NCBI GenBank assembly: GCA_947584965.1
Contig: CANPWQ010000010.1
Location: 1-49,046 of the forward strand
From: Candidatus Gastranaerophilales bacterium
GTDB taxonomy: Bacteria > Cyanobacteriota > Vampirovibrionia > Gastranaerophilales > Gastranaerophilaceae
DNA: 49,046 bases
Direction: 5' to 3'
Position numbers and translations under genes: made by a program. The notes below the pieces were generated by a model. The model searched no databases, was not told where the DNA came from, and saw only the letters and a list, made by a program, of their open reading frames with translations. This document shows positions 1,957 to 43,275 of the stretch, one piece after another; position 1 is the stretch's first letter; every line of letters begins with the position of its first letter.

Positions 1957-2442
1957 TTAACCTTTCATATATTTTTCTTCTAAATACTTTGCTACCGGCT
2001 CGGGTACAAATTTTGATATGTCACCTTTCATTAGTGCTATTTCCCTTACCGTTCCCGATGATATAAAATTATACTTCGGCTTCGTTATTAAAAAAACCGT
2101 GTGAATGTCACTGCTTAATGCACTGTTTGCTTGCGATAACTGCATTTCATATTCAAAATCCGATACAGCTCTTAACCCTCTTATTAATACATTCGCATTT
2201 TTCTTTTTGGCATATTCTATCGTAAGCCCGTCATAACTGTCGACTTCCGCATTTGTTATGTCTTTACAGCTTTCTTTTATCAGCTTTATTCTGTCCTCTA
2301 ACGGCAAAAAACTTTTTTTGTTTACGTTTACGGATACAACTATAATGACTTTATCAAATATATCCGCAGCACGCTTTAAGACATCTAAATGCCCTTTTGT
2401 TATCGGATCAAAACTGCCCGGATATATCGCCGTCTTCAACAC
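1957..2442 (-). CDS. coaD: phosphopantetheine adenylyltransferase
   Basis: Transfers AMP from ATP to 4'-phosphopantetheine, giving dephospho-CoA, the penultimate step of CoA synthesis. At 161 residues it has the usual family length. The nucleotidyltransferase signature TKGH (residues 15-18, inside YPGSFDPITKGHLD) and the C-terminal ISSGTVREI motif (about 126-134) are both present, as is the LIRGLRAVSDFEYE segment. The start is GTG at 2442, placed 5 nt after an AGGG; a TTG one codon later is the only near alternative. A 178-bp gap separates it from the upstream diguanylate cyclase gene, with an AT-rich stretch and a possible TATAAT box (2475-2480, minus), so it may have its own promoter. Confidence 0.95.
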   Translation of the reverse strand: MLKTAIYPGSFDPITKGHLDVLKRAADIFDKVIIVVSVNVNKKSFLPLEDRIKLIKESCKDITNAEVDSYDGLTIEYAKKKNANVLIRGLRAVSDFEYEMQLSQANSALSSDIHTVFLITKPKYNFISSGTVREIALMKGDISKFVPEPVAKYLEEKYMKG

Positions 2443-2620
2443 TTTTTCCCTTTTTTATTTTTTCTGCTATTTTCATTATATTGCAATCATGCTTTTTAGA
2501 TTATCGGCATGTTAAAAATGTTTCTAACTTTTTACAATATTTTTAATCAGATACCGTAATCCTTGCACAGTTCAGATGTTCGATTTGTAATATTCCTTAT
2601 TGCAAAATTTTATCGGACTT

Positions 2621-4231
2621 TTAACTCGGCGGGTTATATCTTGTAAATTTTTCATCAAAATATAAATGTATACAGTTTTTTCCGTTTTCTTTTGATACGT
2701 ATAATGCTTTATCAGCAAAATCTATTAAATCTTTTATATCCTCCGCAGCATTGGGGTACTCTGCCACTCCAATACTTACCGTCGGTCTTATTATAGTTTC
2801 TTCATCAACTTTAACTTCAATTTCACTGATTTTCTTTCTTAGTCTTTCAGCTATCGTTAACGCATTTTGAGCTGCCGTTTCAGGCAGAATTATTGTAAAT
2901 TCTTCACCGCCGTATCTTGCAGGTATATCTACATGCCTTATCACCTTTTGGATTGTTGAGGCAATTTCTTTCAATACCATATCACCTACAAGGTGTCCGT
3001 ATGTATCATTTACGTGCTTGAAGTTGTCTATATCCATCATTATTAATGATAATACATGGTGATACCTTTGGACTCTCTTTATTTCCGTTTCTAACAAGAA
3101 ATAGAAATGTCTGTGTATGTATAACTTTGTTAATCCGTCTTTTGTCGCCAGCTCGTATAACTGCGCATTATCAACCGCAATAGCTGCCTGATTTGCCAGT
3201 GCTTCAACAAATTCCAAATCTTTTTTATTAAAAAGTTTACCGTTCTTTTTATTCGTTATGTTTATTATTCCGATACATTCACCTTTTGCTATTAACGGCA
3301 CACATATTAAGGATGATACATTATTATCGCTTGAAAATTGGTTAAATCTGGGGTCGTTTCCGCCTAAATTTGTTATTATAGATTTTTTCTCGGTAAATAC
3401 TTTCCCCGCAATTCCACTGTCAGGCTTCATTTTTTGGCATTCTACCAGACCGTTATTTATATCATCTTCGTGCTTTTTGTCTTTTAACCCGTATACTACT
3501 TTTACCTGCAATGTGTTATCAGACGGATCATACAACATTAACGAACCTTTTTCCGCATTAACGGTTTCTATTGCTTTATCAAGTATTACTCCGATTAATC
3601 GTTTTAAATCGTCAATAAAGTTTACCGCTTGCGATATATTGTATAATATCGATAAATTATGCAGAGTTTTATTTAAATCCTGTATTTTTGCTTCCTGCTC
3701 TCGGGTTTTTATAAACTTATCCAATATCGGCTCTATACAGCTGAAAACTTGATCTAAATATTTTAAATCTTCATCGCTATATTCACTGTTATCTTCTTTT
3801 GCGCTTAATGAACATACACAAAAAGCATCATTATCATTATAAAATACTTTTATGTATTTCGATTCAAGCTCTTCCAGCTTGTATGTACTCCAAAACGCTT
3901 TATATATTAAACTGCCGTCATGGTTTACTACTTTTATTAATTCCTCTGTTTGATTTTGCAAAAACGGCGCATTTTCGGCATTAAACTCAAACTCTATATC
4001 CGAATTACTCGCTATATTCTTTGTTTGGAATATTCCGTTGTTGTTTAAGAAAAATCTTATTTTCTTTATTGATATTGATGTTTTTATCAGTATTGCAACT
4101 TTTGAAAGCAAATCTTCCATACTTCGCGACTGATTTGCCGCCATATTTAAGTCAAATAAGTTATGCAGCTCCAACACATTTTTTTGTAAATTATATACTT
4201 TTTCTTCAAGTTCATTCGTCATAATATTCAT
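2621..4231 (-). CDS. GAF-GGDEF diguanylate cyclase
   Basis: Predicted to make cyclic di-GMP from two GTP in response to a ligand of its GAF-type sensor. Residues 1-175 hold a divergent sensor region, probably a degenerate GAF. About 190-358 form a clear GAF domain (GIAGKVFTEKKSIITNLG, then CVPLIAKGECIGIINI), and 362-525 are the GGDEF domain. The active-site variant is GGEEF at 441-445, and the product-inhibition I-site RHVD lies at 432-435, exactly five residues upstream, so the enzyme is probably active and feedback-inhibited. There is no transmembrane segment, so it is cytosolic. It starts 32 nt after ribD. No Shine-Dalgarno is obvious before the ATG at 4231, and an ATG three codons later is an alternative. 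Its input signal is unknown. Confidence 0.9.
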   Translation of the reverse strand: MNIMTNELEEKVYNLQKNVLELHNLFDLNMAANQSRSMEDLLSKVAILIKTSISIKKIRFFLNNNGIFQTKNIASNSDIEFEFNAENAPFLQNQTEELIKVVNHDGSLIYKAFWSTYKLEELESKYIKVFYNDNDAFCVCSLSAKEDNSEYSDEDLKYLDQVFSCIEPILDKFIKTREQEAKIQDLNKTLHNLSILYNISQAVNFIDDLKRLIGVILDKAIETVNAEKGSLMLYDPSDNTLQVKVVYGLKDKKHEDDINNGLVECQKMKPDSGIAGKVFTEKKSIITNLGGNDPRFNQFSSDNNVSSLICVPLIAKGECIGIINITNKKNGKLFNKKDLEFVEALANQAAIAVDNAQLYELATKDGLTKLYIHRHFYFLLETEIKRVQRYHHVLSLIMMDIDNFKHVNDTYGHLVGDMVLKEIASTIQKVIRHVDIPARYGGEEFTIILPETAAQNALTIAERLRKKISEIEVKVDEETIIRPTVSIGVAEYPNAAEDIKDLIDFADKALYVSKENGKNCIHLYFDEKFTRYNPPS

Positions 4232-6017: not shown

Positions 6018-8591
6018 ATGATAAATGAAGAAATCAAGAATAACGACAGTTCAAAAGTTAATATTGAACTTGCAACCCCAATGTTTAAACAATTTCTTGA
6101 GATTAAACGCAAATATAAGGGGGTTGTGCTTTTATATCGTTTGGGCGACTTTTATGAGGGGTTCTTTGAGGACGCTATTATCTTTCAAAAAGAATTAGGG
6201 CTTACTTTGACCGCTAAAGACGGCGGTGAACTCGGGAAAGTGCCTATGGCGGGTATTCCTTTTAAATCGGTTAACACTTATCTGCCTAAATTGCTTGAAA
6301 AAAACTTTAAAGTAGCTATCTGCGAACAGGTTGAAAACCCTAAAGACGCGGTTAAACTCGTTAAAAGGGATATAGTTAAAACTATTACCGCAGGAACTAT
6401 TACAGAAACTAATCTGCTTGAACCTACGGGAAATAACTATCTTGCTGCGGTTATTCAGGAAAATAACATATTCGGCCTTGCTTATACCGATATTTCAACA
6501 GGTGAATTTAAAATTACACAAGGCGCTTTTGCCGATATTCTTGCGGAACTCGCAAGAATTAAACCGTCTGAAATCCTTGCTCCTGTAAAAAAACTTAAAA
6601 TTACTCCGTTTCAGATTGTACCCGAGGAAAAAATTGATTTACCGAAGGAAATAGTTAATTTATACTCCTGTACTAAAATTTCTTGCTCTTCTTTTGACTT
6701 AGAAAACGCACAAGAAAAAATTAAAAAATTATTTAACGTAATATCCCTTGAACCTTTCGGGTTTAATGAATTTCAAACGGCGTTTCGCTCGGCAGGTGCG
6801 GTTATTGACTATATTATAGAAACTCAACGGGGCGTACTGCCTAAATTTGATGTTATTACTCCATATTCACTTTCTGAATATATGTCAATAGACGCTTCTA
6901 CAAGACGTAACCTCGAATTGACGGAAACCTCCAGAGATAAAACAAAATACGGAAGCCTGCTTTGGGCAATTGATAAAGTTAAAACCCCTATGGGGTCAAG
7001 ACTGCTTAAGTCTTGGATTGCTCAGCCTCTTAAAAAATTAAACGAAATTAAAAGCCGCCACGACAGCGTAGAGGAGCTTATTAATAATCCGCAGGCGGCT
7101 GTTAATTTAACCAATTTACTCGGTAAAATTTCGGATATCGAACGACTTGCCGTTAAATTAAGCAACTCCTCGGTTAATCCGCGCGATTTTCTTGCGCTCG
7201 CCGATACTCTTGAGCTTCTTCCCAATTTTAATTCAGTTATTTCTAACTTGAAAAGTCCTTATATTTCTCAATTTGATATTAATATTGAGGACTTAATGCA
7301 GTTTGCTTCCGCGATAAAACGCACAATCAACCCTGAAACTCCGATTTTGTTTAAAGACGGCGGGGTTATTAACGATAATGTTAACTCCGAACTTGATTAT
7401 TATAGAAACCTTTTATCGGGCGGGGAAGATTGGATTAAGGATTTTGAAAATAAACAAAAAGAATTGACGGGAATTAAAAGTCTTAAAGTCGCTTTTAACA
7501 ATAATTTCGGGTTTTTTATCGAAATTACAAAGTCCAACATCAGCCAAGTTCCCATGAACTACATTAGGAAACAAACGCTTACCAACGCTGAAAGGTTTAC
7601 TACGGAAGAATTACGCATTCATGAAAACGATGTTTCCTCCGCTCGTCTTAAAAGTATTGAACTGGAACAAAAAATTTATAACGATTTAGTTGAATATTCC
7701 AAAGCGTTTGTTGATGATATAAAATCCGCCTCGCACTTTATTGCACGCTGTGACGTCATTTTATCTTTTGCGCAAACGGCAATTGAATCAAGCTATATAC
7801 GCCCCGAGATGTGTGAAACTAACGAATTATACATTAAAGACGGCAGACACCCTGTTGTTGAAAAAATATTGCCTATGGGGCAGTACGTTCCTAACGATTT
7901 AAAGCTGATTGCGGATATTCATAATTTTGAAGATACTCAATTTATGATACTTACAGGCCCTAATATGGCAGGAAAATCTACTTATATGCGACAAAATGCG
8001 CTTATAGTTCTGCTCGCACAAATAGGTTCATTTGTTCCGGCTTCTTATGCACGAATCGGGATTGTCGATAAAATATTTACCAGAGTCGGCGCTGTGGATG
8101 ACCTTTCTTTAGGTCAGTCGACATTTATGGTTGAAATGAACGAAACCGCATTTATTCTCAACAGCGCTACGGAAAAAAGTTTAATCCTCTTGGATGAAAT
8201 AGGCAGGGGTACTTCTACTTATGACGGAGTCGCCATTGCTTGGTCGGTTGCAGAGTATATTGCTACCAAAATTAAAGCCAGAACTATTTTTGCTACTCAT
8301 TACCATGAGCTTAATGTTATGCCTAAATCTTTTGAGCAGATTAAAAATTACAGAATTACTATCGAAGAAGAAAACGGAGAAATCCACTTCCTGCGCAAAG
8401 TTATCGAGGGAAGCGCAAGCAAAAGCTACGGCATTCAAGTCGCTAAAATGGCGGGTCTGCCCGACAGCGTTATTTCCAAGGCTCAAAGTATTATGAACAG
8501 AATGCAGAAAGATTTTTCTAAGGATTTATCCCGCAAAAAGTCTAAACAAAACTCAAGCGACGTTCCGCAGTTATCTTTAACTTTTGATTAG
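6018..8591 (+). CDS. mutS: DNA mismatch repair protein MutS
   Basis: Recognises base mismatches and small loops and starts mismatch repair with MutL. The 857-residue length is normal for MutS1. The mismatch-contacting motif GDFYE sits at residues 43-47 (Phe45 and Glu47). Connector, lever and clamp domains follow. The ATPase domain has Walker A TGPNMAGKST (about 646-655), Walker B LILLDEIGRGTS, and the ATHYHEL motif. The C terminus ends in a short clamp-type tail, VPQLSLTFD. It leads a plus-strand run with the glycosyltransferase gene 11 nt downstream and rimO. Because MutS corrects slippage at homopolymers, its state matters for the G/C tracts found elsewhere in this window. Confidence 0.97.
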   Translation: MINEEIKNNDSSKVNIELATPMFKQFLEIKRKYKGVVLLYRLGDFYEGFFEDAIIFQKELGLTLTAKDGGELGKVPMAGIPFKSVNTYLPKLLEKNFKVAICEQVENPKDAVKLVKRDIVKTITAGTITETNLLEPTGNNYLAAVIQENNIFGLAYTDISTGEFKITQGAFADILAELARIKPSEILAPVKKLKITPFQIVPEEKIDLPKEIVNLYSCTKISCSSFDLENAQEKIKKLFNVISLEPFGFNEFQTAFRSAGAVIDYIIETQRGVLPKFDVITPYSLSEYMSIDASTRRNLELTETSRDKTKYGSLLWAIDKVKTPMGSRLLKSWIAQPLKKLNEIKSRHDSVEELINNPQAAVNLTNLLGKISDIERLAVKLSNSSVNPRDFLALADTLELLPNFNSVISNLKSPYISQFDINIEDLMQFASAIKRTINPETPILFKDGGVINDNVNSELDYYRNLLSGGEDWIKDFENKQKELTGIKSLKVAFNNNFGFFIEITKSNISQVPMNYIRKQTLTNAERFTTEELRIHENDVSSARLKSIELEQKIYNDLVEYSKAFVDDIKSASHFIARCDVILSFAQTAIESSYIRPEMCETNELYIKDGRHPVVEKILPMGQYVPNDLKLIADIHNFEDTQFMILTGPNMAGKSTYMRQNALIVLLAQIGSFVPASYARIGIVDKIFTRVGAVDDLSLGQSTFMVEMNETAFILNSATEKSLILLDEIGRGTSTYDGVAIAWSVAEYIATKIKARTIFATHYHELNVMPKSFEQIKNYRITIEEENGEIHFLRKVIEGSASKSYGIQVAKMAGLPDSVISKAQSIMNRMQKDFSKDLSRKKSKQNSSDVPQLSLTFD

Positions 8592-31340: not shown

Positions 31341-32255
31341 ATGAATAATAATCAAAAAATCGTAATATTTCCGATTTATTTTAAGAAAGCTCCCATTTTT
31401 AAAAATGAAATTTTTAAACCTATTCAGGCAGGCTGTGCATTAAATGAAATTTATTCGGGGGGGGGGATTTTAACTGATAATACGGGTGATAATATTTCCT
31501 CAAAAAACCCTTATTATGGAGAGTTAACCGCTACTTATTGGATATGGAAAAACTATTTAAAAGAAAATCCAAATATAGAATATATCGGATTTTGCCATTA
31601 CAGAAGATTTTTTGATTTTATAAATAAAAAAGTTGAACCATACAGTTTTAAATTAACAGATTATAAATTTTTTACAAATAATTTTTTGGAAAAAAACACT
31701 CCCGATATTATTGAAAAAACTGTTCAAGAATATGATATAATTTTACCAAGACATATTTATAATTTAAAGCAAACAATTTATAATCAATATATATCCAATC
31801 ATCCAAAAGAACTAATTGATAAATTTATTGAAATTGTAAAATCAGATTATCCTGATTACGCGGAGTGCATGAATAATTTTTTAAACGGGCATGAAATGTA
31901 TCTCGCTCTTAATTTTGTCATGAGAAAAGACCTTTTTATAAACTGGTGTAATTGGATTTTTGATATCCTTTTTAAAATAGAAAAAACTACTGATTTAACT
32001 AAATACAAAACTTATAATGAAATTAGAGGTCAAGCATTCGTTGCTGAAAGATTTTTTAATGTTTGGCTTAAATATAATATTGAAAAATACAATCTTAAAA
32101 CTAAAGAAATAAATGCTTATCTTTTAGAAGATTTAAATACTAAAGTTTACCCGTTTTTATTGGGTAAACTTCAAATTGACAATAAAAGAATAATGCTTAA
32201 TATACTTGGAATAAAAATATTTCACTGGCGAAAAAAAGACAAGGACAGTGAATAA
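31341..32255 (+). CDS. DUF4422-type glycosyltransferase with internal G10 tract
   Basis: 304 residues. The opening IVIFPIYFKKAPIF, the AGCALNEI segment, the conserved DNTGDNISSKNPYYGELTAT followed by YWIWKN, and YIGFCHYRRFF near 80-92 are hallmarks of the DUF4422 family. That family comprises small cytosolic glycosyltransferases found in capsule, O-antigen and other surface-glycan loci. Ten G residues at 31457-31466 encode Ser-Gly-Gly-Gly at a loop just before the conserved DNTGDNIS motif. The present length keeps the frame, while gain or loss of one base would stop the protein after about 40-50 residues. No ribosome site is evident before the ATG. Convergent with rubrerythrin, 3 nt away. Confidence 0.85.
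   Translation: MNNNQKIVIFPIYFKKAPIFKNEIFKPIQAGCALNEIYSGGGILTDNTGDNISSKNPYYGELTATYWIWKNYLKENPNIEYIGFCHYRRFFDFINKKVEPYSFKLTDYKFFTNNFLEKNTPDIIEKTVQEYDIILPRHIYNLKQTIYNQYISNHPKELIDKFIEIVKSDYPDYAECMNNFLNGHEMYLALNFVMRKDLFINWCNWIFDILFKIEKTTDLTKYKTYNEIRGQAFVAERFFNVWLKYNIEKYNLKTKEINAYLLEDLNTKVYPFLLGKLQIDNKRIMLNILGIKIFHWRKKDKDSE
31457..31466 (+). repeat. poly-G tract (G10) inside glycosyltransferase gene
   Basis: Ten consecutive G in an AT-rich coding region, in frame, at a poorly conserved loop. A typical substrate for slipped-strand length change. Confidence 0.9.
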
Positions 32256-34478: not shown

Positions 34479-34489
34479 GGAAATGTTTC

Positions 34490-34520
34490 ATTATACCATT
34501 TTTACCCCCCCCCGAAGCAA
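34490..34520 (-). promoter_or_regulatory. promoter-like module with a 9-base G tract in its spacer
   Basis: Minus strand TTGCTT (34520-34515), 19-nt spacer containing nine consecutive G (34513-34505), TGG, TATAAT (34495-34490). The 14 bases covering the -10 region are identical to those of the NTF2-like gene promoter at 33379-33392, and both have the same -35 box and the same 19-nt spacer. A transcript would meet the terminator at 34478-34447 after about 35 nt. Its target is unclear. Confidence 0.55.
34505..34513 (+). repeat. poly-C tract (C9)
   Basis: Nine consecutive C in noncoding AT-rich DNA. The 14-mer around it, TACCCCCCCCCGAA, is identical to that of the tract at 41718-41726. Confidence 0.9.
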
Positions 34521-34619
34521 TTTAAGGGAAACAGGAATGTAACAAGATTTTAATATAGAGGTTTAGAATTTTAAAAAACGGGCATTGTAATATTACGTTG
34601 ATTTGTGCCTAAAATTAAT

Positions 34620-40020: not shown

Positions 40021-40569
40021 CTCCTTTTGTTTTATGTTATTTACTTATTTGGCTTTGTTTTTTGGTTTGTTTTTTCCGCTTCTGGTCAAGCTGTCTTGGT
40101 TTTTGCTCTTTATCGGGGCTGTCGTTGGTTTCACTTCGTTATCGCCAACTTCGCTGTCCTTATTTTCCTGTCGGCTCAATCTTCTTCTTCGTTTCACGAG
40201 CCTTTCGGCTTTTTGTACTCCGAGCGATTTGCACCTCTTCGGGCTCGGGTGCAGCGGCACCTTTAAAGTTTAGTTTAACTTATTATATTTAATCCAACTT
40301 TAAACCGGCTCTGCCGACCGTCCGCAATTTCGCTGTCTTGAAATTCCTGTTCGCACAACCCGAGCAAACTCGCTTAAAAACCTTCGGTTTCCCACTCGTT
40401 ACGGGTTGTTGCTCCCTCGGGCTCGCTCGCTTTCGCTCGACTTAGCCCTGCGGAATTTCGCTGTCTTGAAATTGCTTTTCGCTCGCTGCTGTCGTTGGCT
40501 TCACTCCGTTGTCGCCAACTTCGCGCTCGCCTATCGGGTTCGTTTCACTCCACCCGTCCGCAATTTCGC
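40021..40569. repeat. interspersed repeat island inside the ribosomal operon
   Basis: Noncoding, clearly more GC-rich than its surroundings, between rpmJ and rpsM. A 37-bp unit starting GCTGTCGTTGG and ending CGCCAACTTCGC occurs at 40118-40154 and 40488-40524 (34 of 37 identical, all differences transitions). A 20-bp unit AATTTCGCTGTCTTGAAATT, itself a 6-bp hairpin, occurs exactly at 40326-40345 and 40454-40473. CCGTCCGCAATTTCGCT occurs at 40318-40334 and 40554-40570, the last copy touching the rpmJ stop. Several frames stay open by composition, but none shows gene-like features. Confidence 0.75.
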
Positions 40570-40683
40570 TCAGCCCTGCCTTTGTTTGTGTTTCGGGTTT
40601 TCACAAATTATTGCTACTCTGCCCTTTCTTTTTATTACTTTGCATTTGTCGCAAAGCGGTTTTACTGATGCTCTGACTTTCAT
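40570..40683 (-). CDS. rpmJ: 50S ribosomal protein L36
   Basis: 37-residue zinc ribbon protein, complete from ATG at 40683 to TGA at 40570: [20 protein letters not shown] followed by [17 protein letters not shown]. Zinc ligands of the C+ form are Cys11, Cys14, Cys27 and His32. GAAAAGGA lies upstream as ribosome site. It belongs between infA and rpsM as in most bacteria, but is separated from rpsM by the repeat island and from infA by a gap of 104 bp that contains a C10 tract. Confidence 0.96.
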
Positions 40684-40749: not shown

Positions 40750-40759
40750 CCCCCCCCCC
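40750..40759 (+). repeat. poly-C tract (C10) between rpmJ and infA
   Basis: Ten consecutive C on the plus strand (G10 in the mRNA), flanked by a T-rich stretch and, 12 nt further, a small CCGC/GCGG hairpin (40771-40782). It lies in the infA-rpmJ leader region, not in a gene. Confidence 0.9.
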
Positions 40760-41284: not shown

Positions 41285-42259
41285 ATGAAAAAATTTATTG
41301 TTAACATTGTTGTTTTTATATTTTGTTTCTTTGCTCTTGACTATTGCATATATAAATTTAACAGCATTGAATACAAAAAAGTTACAAATACGGATATGCA
41401 CCCGATACTACCTTATTATAAATTTTATACGGAAAGAATAAGTCTTTCGCTCCCCGTATTAAAAAAAAATTATATAAACGGTGATTTCAGTTACTTTAGA
41501 AAAAATCCCGCGAATTCTAATTTAAACACAAAACCGTCCATTTTACTTTTTGGATGTTCTTATGCTTATGGTACTCTTTTAGAAGATAAACAAACCTTTC
41601 ACTATAAACTGTCCAAATTAACAAAAAGGAACATCTACAACAGAGCGCTTGAAGCATGCGGTATTCAGCACATGTATTTTTTATTATCCGATAAAAACTT
41701 CTTTAATCCAATTCCTACCCCCCCCCGAATACAATATGCTGTTTACATATATATTCCAAACCATTTAGAAAGACTTACAACGAAAACTTTTCCTAATCCG
41801 TTATGCTTAAGCGAAAAACTTTTAATTTACAAACTAAAAAATAATGATTTAATAATAAACAATACTCCGTCTTTCTTATACAAGTCCTTTATTTTTAAAG
41901 AATTAGTAAAAATTAACGATGATAGAAATAACATAGTTACAATTGAAAATAATTATAAAAAATTTATTCTTGCAAATGAAATATTTTTAAGAAGTAAAAA
42001 AATACTTGAACAAAAATATCCGGATATTAAATTTGTTATTTTAAAATATAATTATGAAAATGATCACAATGTTAATTATGAATTACCTTTCATGTGGGAT
42101 ATTTTAGAAAAAGAAGGATTTATAATTTTAGAAACAAAAGATTTAATAGGAAGAAAATTTGTTTTAAATTCTAAAGATACGGTAAATGACGGATATCATC
42201 CGTCAGAATATGCATGGGATTTGCTTCTTCCTCCATTAATTAAAAAATTAAACTTATAA
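41285..42259 (+). CDS. membrane-anchored SGNH-hydrolase-like protein with C9 tract
   Basis: 324 residues. An N-terminal signal anchor (about 4-24) is followed by an external domain. ILLFGCSYAYG (86-96) holds the candidate nucleophile Ser92, and DGYHP (302-306) gives Asp302 and His305, the spacing of an SGNH/GDSL triad. That suggests esterase or acyltransferase action on a cell-surface glycan. The second gene is a tandem paralogue with the same motifs. Nine C at 41718-41726 encode the Thr-Pro-Pro-Arg segment near residues 145-148. In the present state the frame is open; a one-base change would cut the protein at about half length, removing Asp302/His305. Confidence 0.75.
   Translation: MKKFIVNIVVFIFCFFALDYCIYKFNSIEYKKVTNTDMHPILPYYKFYTERISLSLPVLKKNYINGDFSYFRKNPANSNLNTKPSILLFGCSYAYGTLLEDKQTFHYKLSKLTKRNIYNRALEACGIQHMYFLLSDKNFFNPIPTPPRIQYAVYIYIPNHLERLTTKTFPNPLCLSEKLLIYKLKNNDLIINNTPSFLYKSFIFKELVKINDDRNNIVTIENNYKKFILANEIFLRSKKILEQKYPDIKFVILKYNYENDHNVNYELPFMWDILEKEGFIILETKDLIGRKFVLNSKDTVNDGYHPSEYAWDLLLPPLIKKLNL
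41718..41726 (+). repeat. poly-C tract (C9) inside SGNH-like gene
   Basis: Nine consecutive C within TACCCCCCCCCGAA, in frame, in a coding region of otherwise very low GC. Confidence 0.9.
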
Positions 42260-42279: not shown

Positions 42280-43275
42280 ATGAATAAAGTAATAAAAATA
42301 TTTATTATAATTCTTATTAATGCAATGATTGTGTGCGCGGTTGTATTTGTTTCTGATTTATTAATTTACAAACATTACAAAAGTATTTATTACAAAACAA
42401 ATCCAAGAACATTTCAAATACAGGAATTTACTTATGTTCCGAATATTCCAAGTTACATTTATGATTTAAGCGGATTTTTTAAAGAAAAAGACGATATTTA
42501 TTATTGGGGCAGAAAACCTGACGGTCTTCAGTATTGCAAAGATAAAAAAGACTGTCGTCCCATTGTTTTATTCGGAGGCTCTTACGCTTACGGTCAATAT
42601 TTAAAATATAATCAGACATTCAGTTACAAGCTGGCGCATAAATTAAAACGTCCTGTTTATAACAGAGGAATAATCGGCGGAAGCTGGCATTTAATGTATT
42701 TTCAGACTAATGATGAACAGGGAAAAGATTTTTACAAAGATGTTCCGCCCTCTGATACGGTTATTTACATTATGATTAATGACCATTTCAGGCGAACTTT
42801 ATTATATTATTTTAATGTTGTAGATAAATTTGTTTACCCACACTACATATTAAAAAAAGATAAATTTGTAATGGATAATTATAAAAATCGGCCTGTAACT
42901 TTTTTCAATTCGTTATACACGGTCAAACATTTTAACCATGTTTATGCGGATAATTACATTAATGATTTTAAAAATAACAAAAAGTTAACAGATACAGCTC
43001 TAAAATATTTTCTTTTATCAAGAGAGGCTATGGAAAAACATTGGGGTAAAAAAATCAAATTTATTGTTATAGTTTATGATGACTGGTATTTAAACCATAC
43101 AGATGTTTTCATTGACAAATTAAAAGAAAATAACTTTATTGTTTTAAAAGTCAGTGATTATATTAAAGCAGATTTAAACTCACCCGAATACAAAATGCAG
43201 GATAATCTGCACCCGACTGAAAGAGCTTATAAAGAATTAGTTGACGTTGTTGTAAAGAATATAGATTTTAATTAA
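42280..43275 (+). CDS. membrane-anchored SGNH-hydrolase-like protein, tandem paralogue
   Basis: 331 residues with an N-terminal signal anchor (about 5-28). IVLFGGSYAYG (95-105, Ser101) and DNLHP (308-312, Asp308/His311) match the first copy, as do the intervening QTFSYKLAHKLKRPVYNRG and the VIYIMINDHFRR strand. Where the first copy has a C9-encoded TPPR this one reads VPPSDT without a homopolymer, so only one of the pair is switchable. It overlaps the convergent purB by 4 nt. Probably an external glycan esterase or acyltransferase; the substrate is unknown. Confidence 0.75.
   Translation: MNKVIKIFIIILINAMIVCAVVFVSDLLIYKHYKSIYYKTNPRTFQIQEFTYVPNIPSYIYDLSGFFKEKDDIYYWGRKPDGLQYCKDKKDCRPIVLFGGSYAYGQYLKYNQTFSYKLAHKLKRPVYNRGIIGGSWHLMYFQTNDEQGKDFYKDVPPSDTVIYIMINDHFRRTLLYYFNVVDKFVYPHYILKKDKFVMDNYKNRPVTFFNSLYTVKHFNHVYADNYINDFKNNKKLTDTALKYFLLSREAMEKHWGKKIKFIVIVYDDWYLNHTDVFIDKLKENNFIVLKVSDYIKADLNSPEYKMQDNLHPTERAYKELVDVVVKNIDFN

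Follow-up and report, generated by a model that had tools for sequence, protein, structure and literature searches.

A run of nine cytosines lies within the first of two tandem genes for SGNH-like proteins in an uncultured gut bacterium of the Gastranaerophilales, raising the question of whether gain or loss of a cytosine switches the gene on and off, or whether the run is a stable piece of coding sequence. We considered it within the window, a stretch of 49,046 nt that is one entire contig among the 74 of a 1.73-Mb genome, and then across that genome and its relatives.

The C9 tract and its host gene

The tract (41718-41726, forward strand) sits exactly where the preliminary description placed it, in a 324-aa open reading frame (41285-42259, forward strand; hereafter protein 1) that is in the ON frame in the assembly. 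It occupies codons 145-148, read as ACC CCC CCC CGA (Thr-Pro-Pro-Arg). A change of one nucleotide in either direction shifts the frame and brings an early stop, as the other two frames close within 13 or 22 codons downstream of the tract. Either slipped frame therefore leaves a stub that keeps Ser92 and lacks Asp302 and His305, so the truncation ahead of the Asp/His pair that had been proposed holds for both alternatives.

An intact frame would also fit a Thr-Pro-Pro loop that uses CCC codons by chance and does not switch, as CCC accounts for about 21% of proline codons (758 of 3,563). Transcriptional slippage or programmed ribosomal frameshifting offers another account, in which one genotype yields both a full-length and a short protein; homopolymers are capable of this, and the stub would retain the membrane helix together with Ser92. 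Evidence bearing on both accounts comes from the other tracts and from related species, as set out below.

The gene product is SGNH-like with a presumed catalytic triad, as first described. Ser92 (codon 41558-41560, forward strand), the presumed nucleophile, lies in a block I motif (FGCSY) encoded upstream of the tract, and Asp302-x-x-His305 (codons 42188-42199, forward strand), presumed to complete the triad, is lost in either slipped frame. All three residues are conserved without exception among the aligned orthologues, as are Ser92 and His305 throughout a 62-member family, and a block I Ser with a block V Asp-x-x-His is the motif pattern of the SGNH/GDSL superfamily. The structure predicted from 62 homologues (mean pLDDT 93.5) comprises a TM-like helix (residues 2-33) and an SGNH domain (about 82-324), with the C9 encoding part of a loop (141-148) directly ahead of a core strand (149-156). 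Over residues 84-324, Foldseek and VIA-align match this model to SGNH chains with Z of 12-15.7, among them CgnD (15.7), TesA (about 13) and CE2 acetyl esterases (about 12.9); the match to the PatB O-acetyltransferase has Z 11.7. Protein 1 has no Pfam match, falling short of the gathering scores of Lipase_GDSL and Lipase_GDSL_2, and a profile search of solved structures returned a sole, sub-threshold GDSL match; its superfamily assignment thus rests on fold and motifs.

Cell-surface SGNH enzymes usually add acetyl groups to glycans or remove them. Judging from the model, protein 1 is probably a membrane-anchored, sugar-modifying enzyme, and its topology is probably extracytoplasmic. From the fold, and from the company of genes that carry similar tracts, among them a second SGNH gene, an AT3 acyltransferase gene and an AlgX/DltD-like SGNH gene next to an MBOAT gene, we infer that it acylates or deacylates a glycan. 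Five MBOAT loci and one AT3 gene are present in the genome, none of them in the operon of protein 1.

The adjacent gene (paralogue 2; 42280-43275, forward strand, 331 aa) resembles protein 1 at 30% identity over 252 aa (E 2e-21) and matches Lipase_GDSL_2 weakly (E 0.011, under the family cut-off). It lacks a tract at the aligned site, as had been noted. The pair was accordingly proposed to be one switchable and one constant copy; the contrast between tract and no tract stands, but a same-function backup is not established, because paralogue 2 is only 30% identical, falls on a separate branch of the tree and is one of nine SGNH homologues in the genome, two of which have tracts.

Run lengths and gene classes across the genome

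The genome contains 42 C/G runs of 9-12 nt (26 C9, 14 C10, one C11 and one C12) and, in all of its 1.73 Mb, none of exactly 7 or 8; the 42 tracts explain every one of the 61 matches to C9 and of the 145 to C7, which leaves nothing over for a run of 7 or 8. None was seen either in the 445 kb examined in full, consisting of the window and 396 kb of background that is non-random with respect to tracts and was used solely for the absence of 7-8 nt runs. The window itself has four C/G runs of 9-10, with lengths of 6-8 unrepresented, and runs of at least 8 give 10 overlapping matches against 0.16 expected from dinucleotide shuffles, with 0 of 100 shuffles reaching 10; the C9 thus has the long repeat, far above chance, of an SSR contingency locus. 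Long A/T runs lie below a simple Markov expectation, opposite to C/G. The C/G length spectrum is that of maintained, slippage-prone tracts, and 42 runs of 9-12 alongside none of 7-8 speak against a stable loop that acquired its CCC codons by chance. Tracts in C. jejuni share the G9/G10 set point, insertions prevailing at G8 and deletions from G11 upwards (PMC8355987).

Loss of mismatch repair was rejected as the cause of the tracts, since a MutS1 gene lies in the window (6018-8588) and MutL is encoded in the genome. With both encoded, the slippage rate may be below that of C. jejuni. Across the genus, the presence of mutS and mutL does not track tract number. The very tract-rich genome G032 has no mutL match.

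Reading all 42 tracts together with their flanks, we found 17 in ORFs that are ON, ten that split an ORF, four near a start whose reading is ambiguous, and eleven that are intergenic or at contig ends. The ten OFF genes have their reading frame divided exactly at the tract, several with the conserved domain divided too; Pfam profiles for GT2 (contig C17) and LicD (contig C34) are interrupted precisely there. This call is weakest for three pilins, for which it depends on a short upstream ATG. Tracts are concentrated in surface-sugar and pilus genes. The glycan families represented are acyltransferase-3, FkbM methyltransferase (two), LicD (two), GT2 (three, one fused to a polysaccharide pyruvyl transferase), GT8, DUF4422 and SGNH (two), joined by TupA-like ATP-grasp, DegT aminotransferase, PMT-like membrane, radical SAM and NFACT proteins and by three N-methylated pilin-like proteins. 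As a share of each family in the whole genome, tracts occur in 2/2 FkbM, 2/2 LicD, 3 of about 23 GT2, 3/12 pilin-like and 2/9 SGNH genes, with each p at most 0.011 given 31 tract-bearing genes among about 1,700, a total estimated from the size of the genome. In the window, the DUF4422 gene (31341-32255) is a locus of the same kind as that of protein 1, with a G10 tract (31457-31466, forward strand) at codons 39-42 and an ON frame.

Such a distribution bears on two of the alternatives. The genomes are metagenome bins, in which homopolymer lengths may be wrong or chemistry-derived poly-G may have been built into the sequence; yet an artefact of assembly or sequencing would neither target surface-glycan genes nor leave 17 frames open, and the tracts are located mid-contig. 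Transcriptional slippage or frameshifting, for its part, sits poorly with a tract common to genes of unrelated product, which is the pattern of contingency at the DNA level.

In the three pilin-like genes (L003, L029 and L061) the tract follows the short upstream ATG and precedes the prepilin leader, out of frame in every case, and a pilin-like gene in G018 (L205) is similar. A G12 run (L063:2001-2012) stops six bases short of the start codon where an AlgX/DltD-like SGNH gene begins (2019-3152), itself adjoining an MBOAT gene; its position makes the run a possible switch, translational or at the promoter, for an acylation pair. In another genome, a G11 run (L206, G011:C50:19797-19807) lies in the DPPY region of a DNA-methyltransferase-like ORF, resembling phase-variable Mod enzymes.

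Outside coding sequence, a near-identical cassette, TTGC(T/C)-G9-TAAAA-TATAAT, stands upstream of three Kelch-like secreted paralogues, about 43 nt from the start (L062:1402-1480, L069:1956-2035 and L079:896-975 (minus strand)). Its G9 falls in the spacer between the -35 and -10 elements, which suggests transcriptional phase variation. These promoters were identified by eye, the promoter scanner, which accepts spacings of 16-18 nt, having missed these longer ones. The window carries an orphan copy (34480-34525) with no ORF behind it, its G9 (34505-34513, reverse strand) again in the spacer of a sigma70-like promoter. A C10 tract (40750-40759) separates infA from rpmJ in the ribosomal-protein operon, and is absent from the syntenic locus of G012. 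Between rpsM and rpmJ there are also imperfect direct repeats that are unusually GC-rich (40090-40570).

Tracts in orthologues, paralogues and sister species

Of the 58 genomes searched, 32 encode homologues of protein 1. All 32 belong to the same genus as the window, and homologues are frequently numerous in a genome and arranged in tandem. Each related species was represented by a single genome; the nearest orthologues belong to MAGs from one project, with isolate names starting 'Lapin', taken as rabbit gut. The gene order infA, SGNH array, purB and citramalate-synthase-like gene is syntenic in full in G012; G008 retains the array, purB and citramalate gene on a contig that begins within the array, and in G026 infA adjoins the orthologue of the protein 1 gene. 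Syntenic orthologues in all three have C9 at the same codon positions, with differing flanking codons. The tract is in frame in G012 and G008 and out of frame in G026, where the halves matching residues 1-150 and 150-324 of the query occupy different frames. Both states expected of an SSR contingency locus are therefore found, ON in the present genome (G000), G012 and G008 and OFF in G026, although the OFF state of G026 could reflect decay or a homopolymer consensus error.

The tract is absent from L083 and L084, the closest orthologues. Tractless orthologues carry other residues at the loop, so the Pro-Pro pair is not needed. In the tree, the tract-bearing genes fall into one supported group of six (98/95), two members of which are tractless; on this topology the tract would have been gained once and lost twice, or gained repeatedly. 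Two in-frame orthologues suit a stable loop as well, but other residues at the site in tractless orthologues, and frames broken at the tract in the orthologue of G026 and in ten further genes with tracts, do not, and we regard this explanation as improbable. Transcriptional slippage or frameshifting appears less probable still, given that the alternative frames vary between species and yield just short tails.

Paralogues carry tracts at other sites, lying before the catalytic Ser in L066, L107, L130, L150, L156 and L196, near residue 231 in L150 (a second tract), and right before the Asp-x-x-His in L151. The frame is ON in L066, L130, L150 (both tracts) and L196, and OFF in L107, L151 and L156. 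Independent acquisition of tracts at several sites of the SGNH family argues for selection for switching. One of these genes, L196, belongs to a genome from another project (U.4_7), so the tract pattern is not confined to one dataset.

Congeners such as G001, G006, G017 and G020 have no C9 runs, and tracts are accordingly dispensable. Across the relatives G001-G034, some species are rich in C/G runs of 9 or more and others have none. G018 (contigs C40, C55 and C60; L202-L204) and G013 (C108) have poly-G/C runs 17-32 long that lie next to N or at the end of a contig; these are probably sequencing artefacts, and they inflate the raw tract counts of G018 and of part of G013. These runs, and the origin of most named tract-bearing SGNH loci in one rabbit-gut project, lend some colour to the view that tracts are artefactual. 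Against it, orthologous tracts reappear in separately binned species, and SGNH and glycosyltransferase-like tracts are also present in U.4_7 (G013), from a different project; we consider it very unlikely that the tracts arose in this way.

The proposed switch and its relation to known systems

We conclude that the C9 is very probably a slipped-strand contingency locus that switches a predicted acyl-modifying SGNH surface enzyme, one among about 30 or more phase-variable surface genes. This reading is built on the tract, its frame, the fold, the length spectrum, the gene classes and the ON and OFF frames of genome and orthologues. The on/off switch put forward in the preliminary description gains support from the run-length spectrum, the concentration in surface-glycan genes, the ten other genes split at a tract and the frameshifted syntenic orthologue. 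Slipped-strand mispairing is the established cause of variation at such loci. During replication it would alter the C9 by one or more C, with nine and every third length giving the full-length frame and the other two frames stopping 13-22 codons later, in a stub of roughly 160-170 aa without Asp302 and His305. The ON product would be an SGNH enzyme, anchored in the membrane and probably extracytoplasmic, which acts on a surface glycan by attaching or cleaving off acyl groups, acetyl being the likeliest. Together, the switchable genes (glycosyltransferases, FkbM methyltransferases, LicD, acyltransferase-3 and pilins among them) may diversify the surface of a Gastranaerophilales population. More broadly, it is likely that a subset of the genus uses combinatorial phase variation at about 30-40 loci, through G/C tracts in ORFs and the G9-spacer cassette, with a 9-10 nt set point kept despite MutS and MutL and with tracts gained and lost between sister species.

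Homopolymeric-tract phase variation is best known in mucosal Proteobacteria and Campylobacterota, and the SGNH array is not, to our knowledge, a phase-variable family of Campylobacter. We found no report of phase variation by such tracts in Gastranaerophilales or Melainabacteria in the open-access literature searched, outside which most subscription journals lie. The proposed mechanism is one already known, slipped-strand phase variation as in Campylobacter; the lineage is new for it as far as that literature goes. That uncultured gut relatives of Cyanobacteria have a repertoire as large as that of Campylobacter suggests an independent origin under host or phage pressure, and the occurrence of tract-rich and tract-free species within one genus makes its cause testable by comparison. 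The tract list also provides candidate surface loci for a group with little-known cell-surface biology, and gene calling in such MAGs will mislabel OFF genes as pseudogenes.

Campylobacter contingency loci are the nearest counterpart. Their G/C mononucleotide tracts are mostly 9-10 long, number dozens per genome, lie mainly within ORFs with an intergenic minority, and act on capsule, LOS and flagellar-glycan genes (PMC8355987). The tracts described here are alike in length, placement, number and surface-glycan targets, but belong to an unrelated lineage, in which phase variation is predicted from sequence and mismatch repair genes are present, whereas mismatch repair is reported to be non-functional in C. 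jejuni (PMC8355987). Phase-variable O-acetylation of glycans is represented by oafA of H. influenzae and by oafB of Salmonella, which has a methylation-based switch (PMC9558356). The proposed outcome is similar, a random ON/OFF acyl decoration of a surface glycan, although oafA and oafB encode acyltransferase-3 proteins and protein 1 stands alone as a membrane-anchored SGNH protein, its gene having no acyltransferase gene for a neighbour, and a C tract within the ORF takes the place of the methylation switch of oafB. Finally, peptidoglycan O-acetyltransferases and esterases of the PatB/Ape1 type (PDB 7tlv, 7trr, 8tlb and 8gkd) have in common with protein 1, which bears an N-terminal membrane anchor, the SGNH fold, the Ser and the Asp-x-x-His; protein 1 differs from them in its sequence, at just 8-15% identity, and in having no MBOAT gene beside it.
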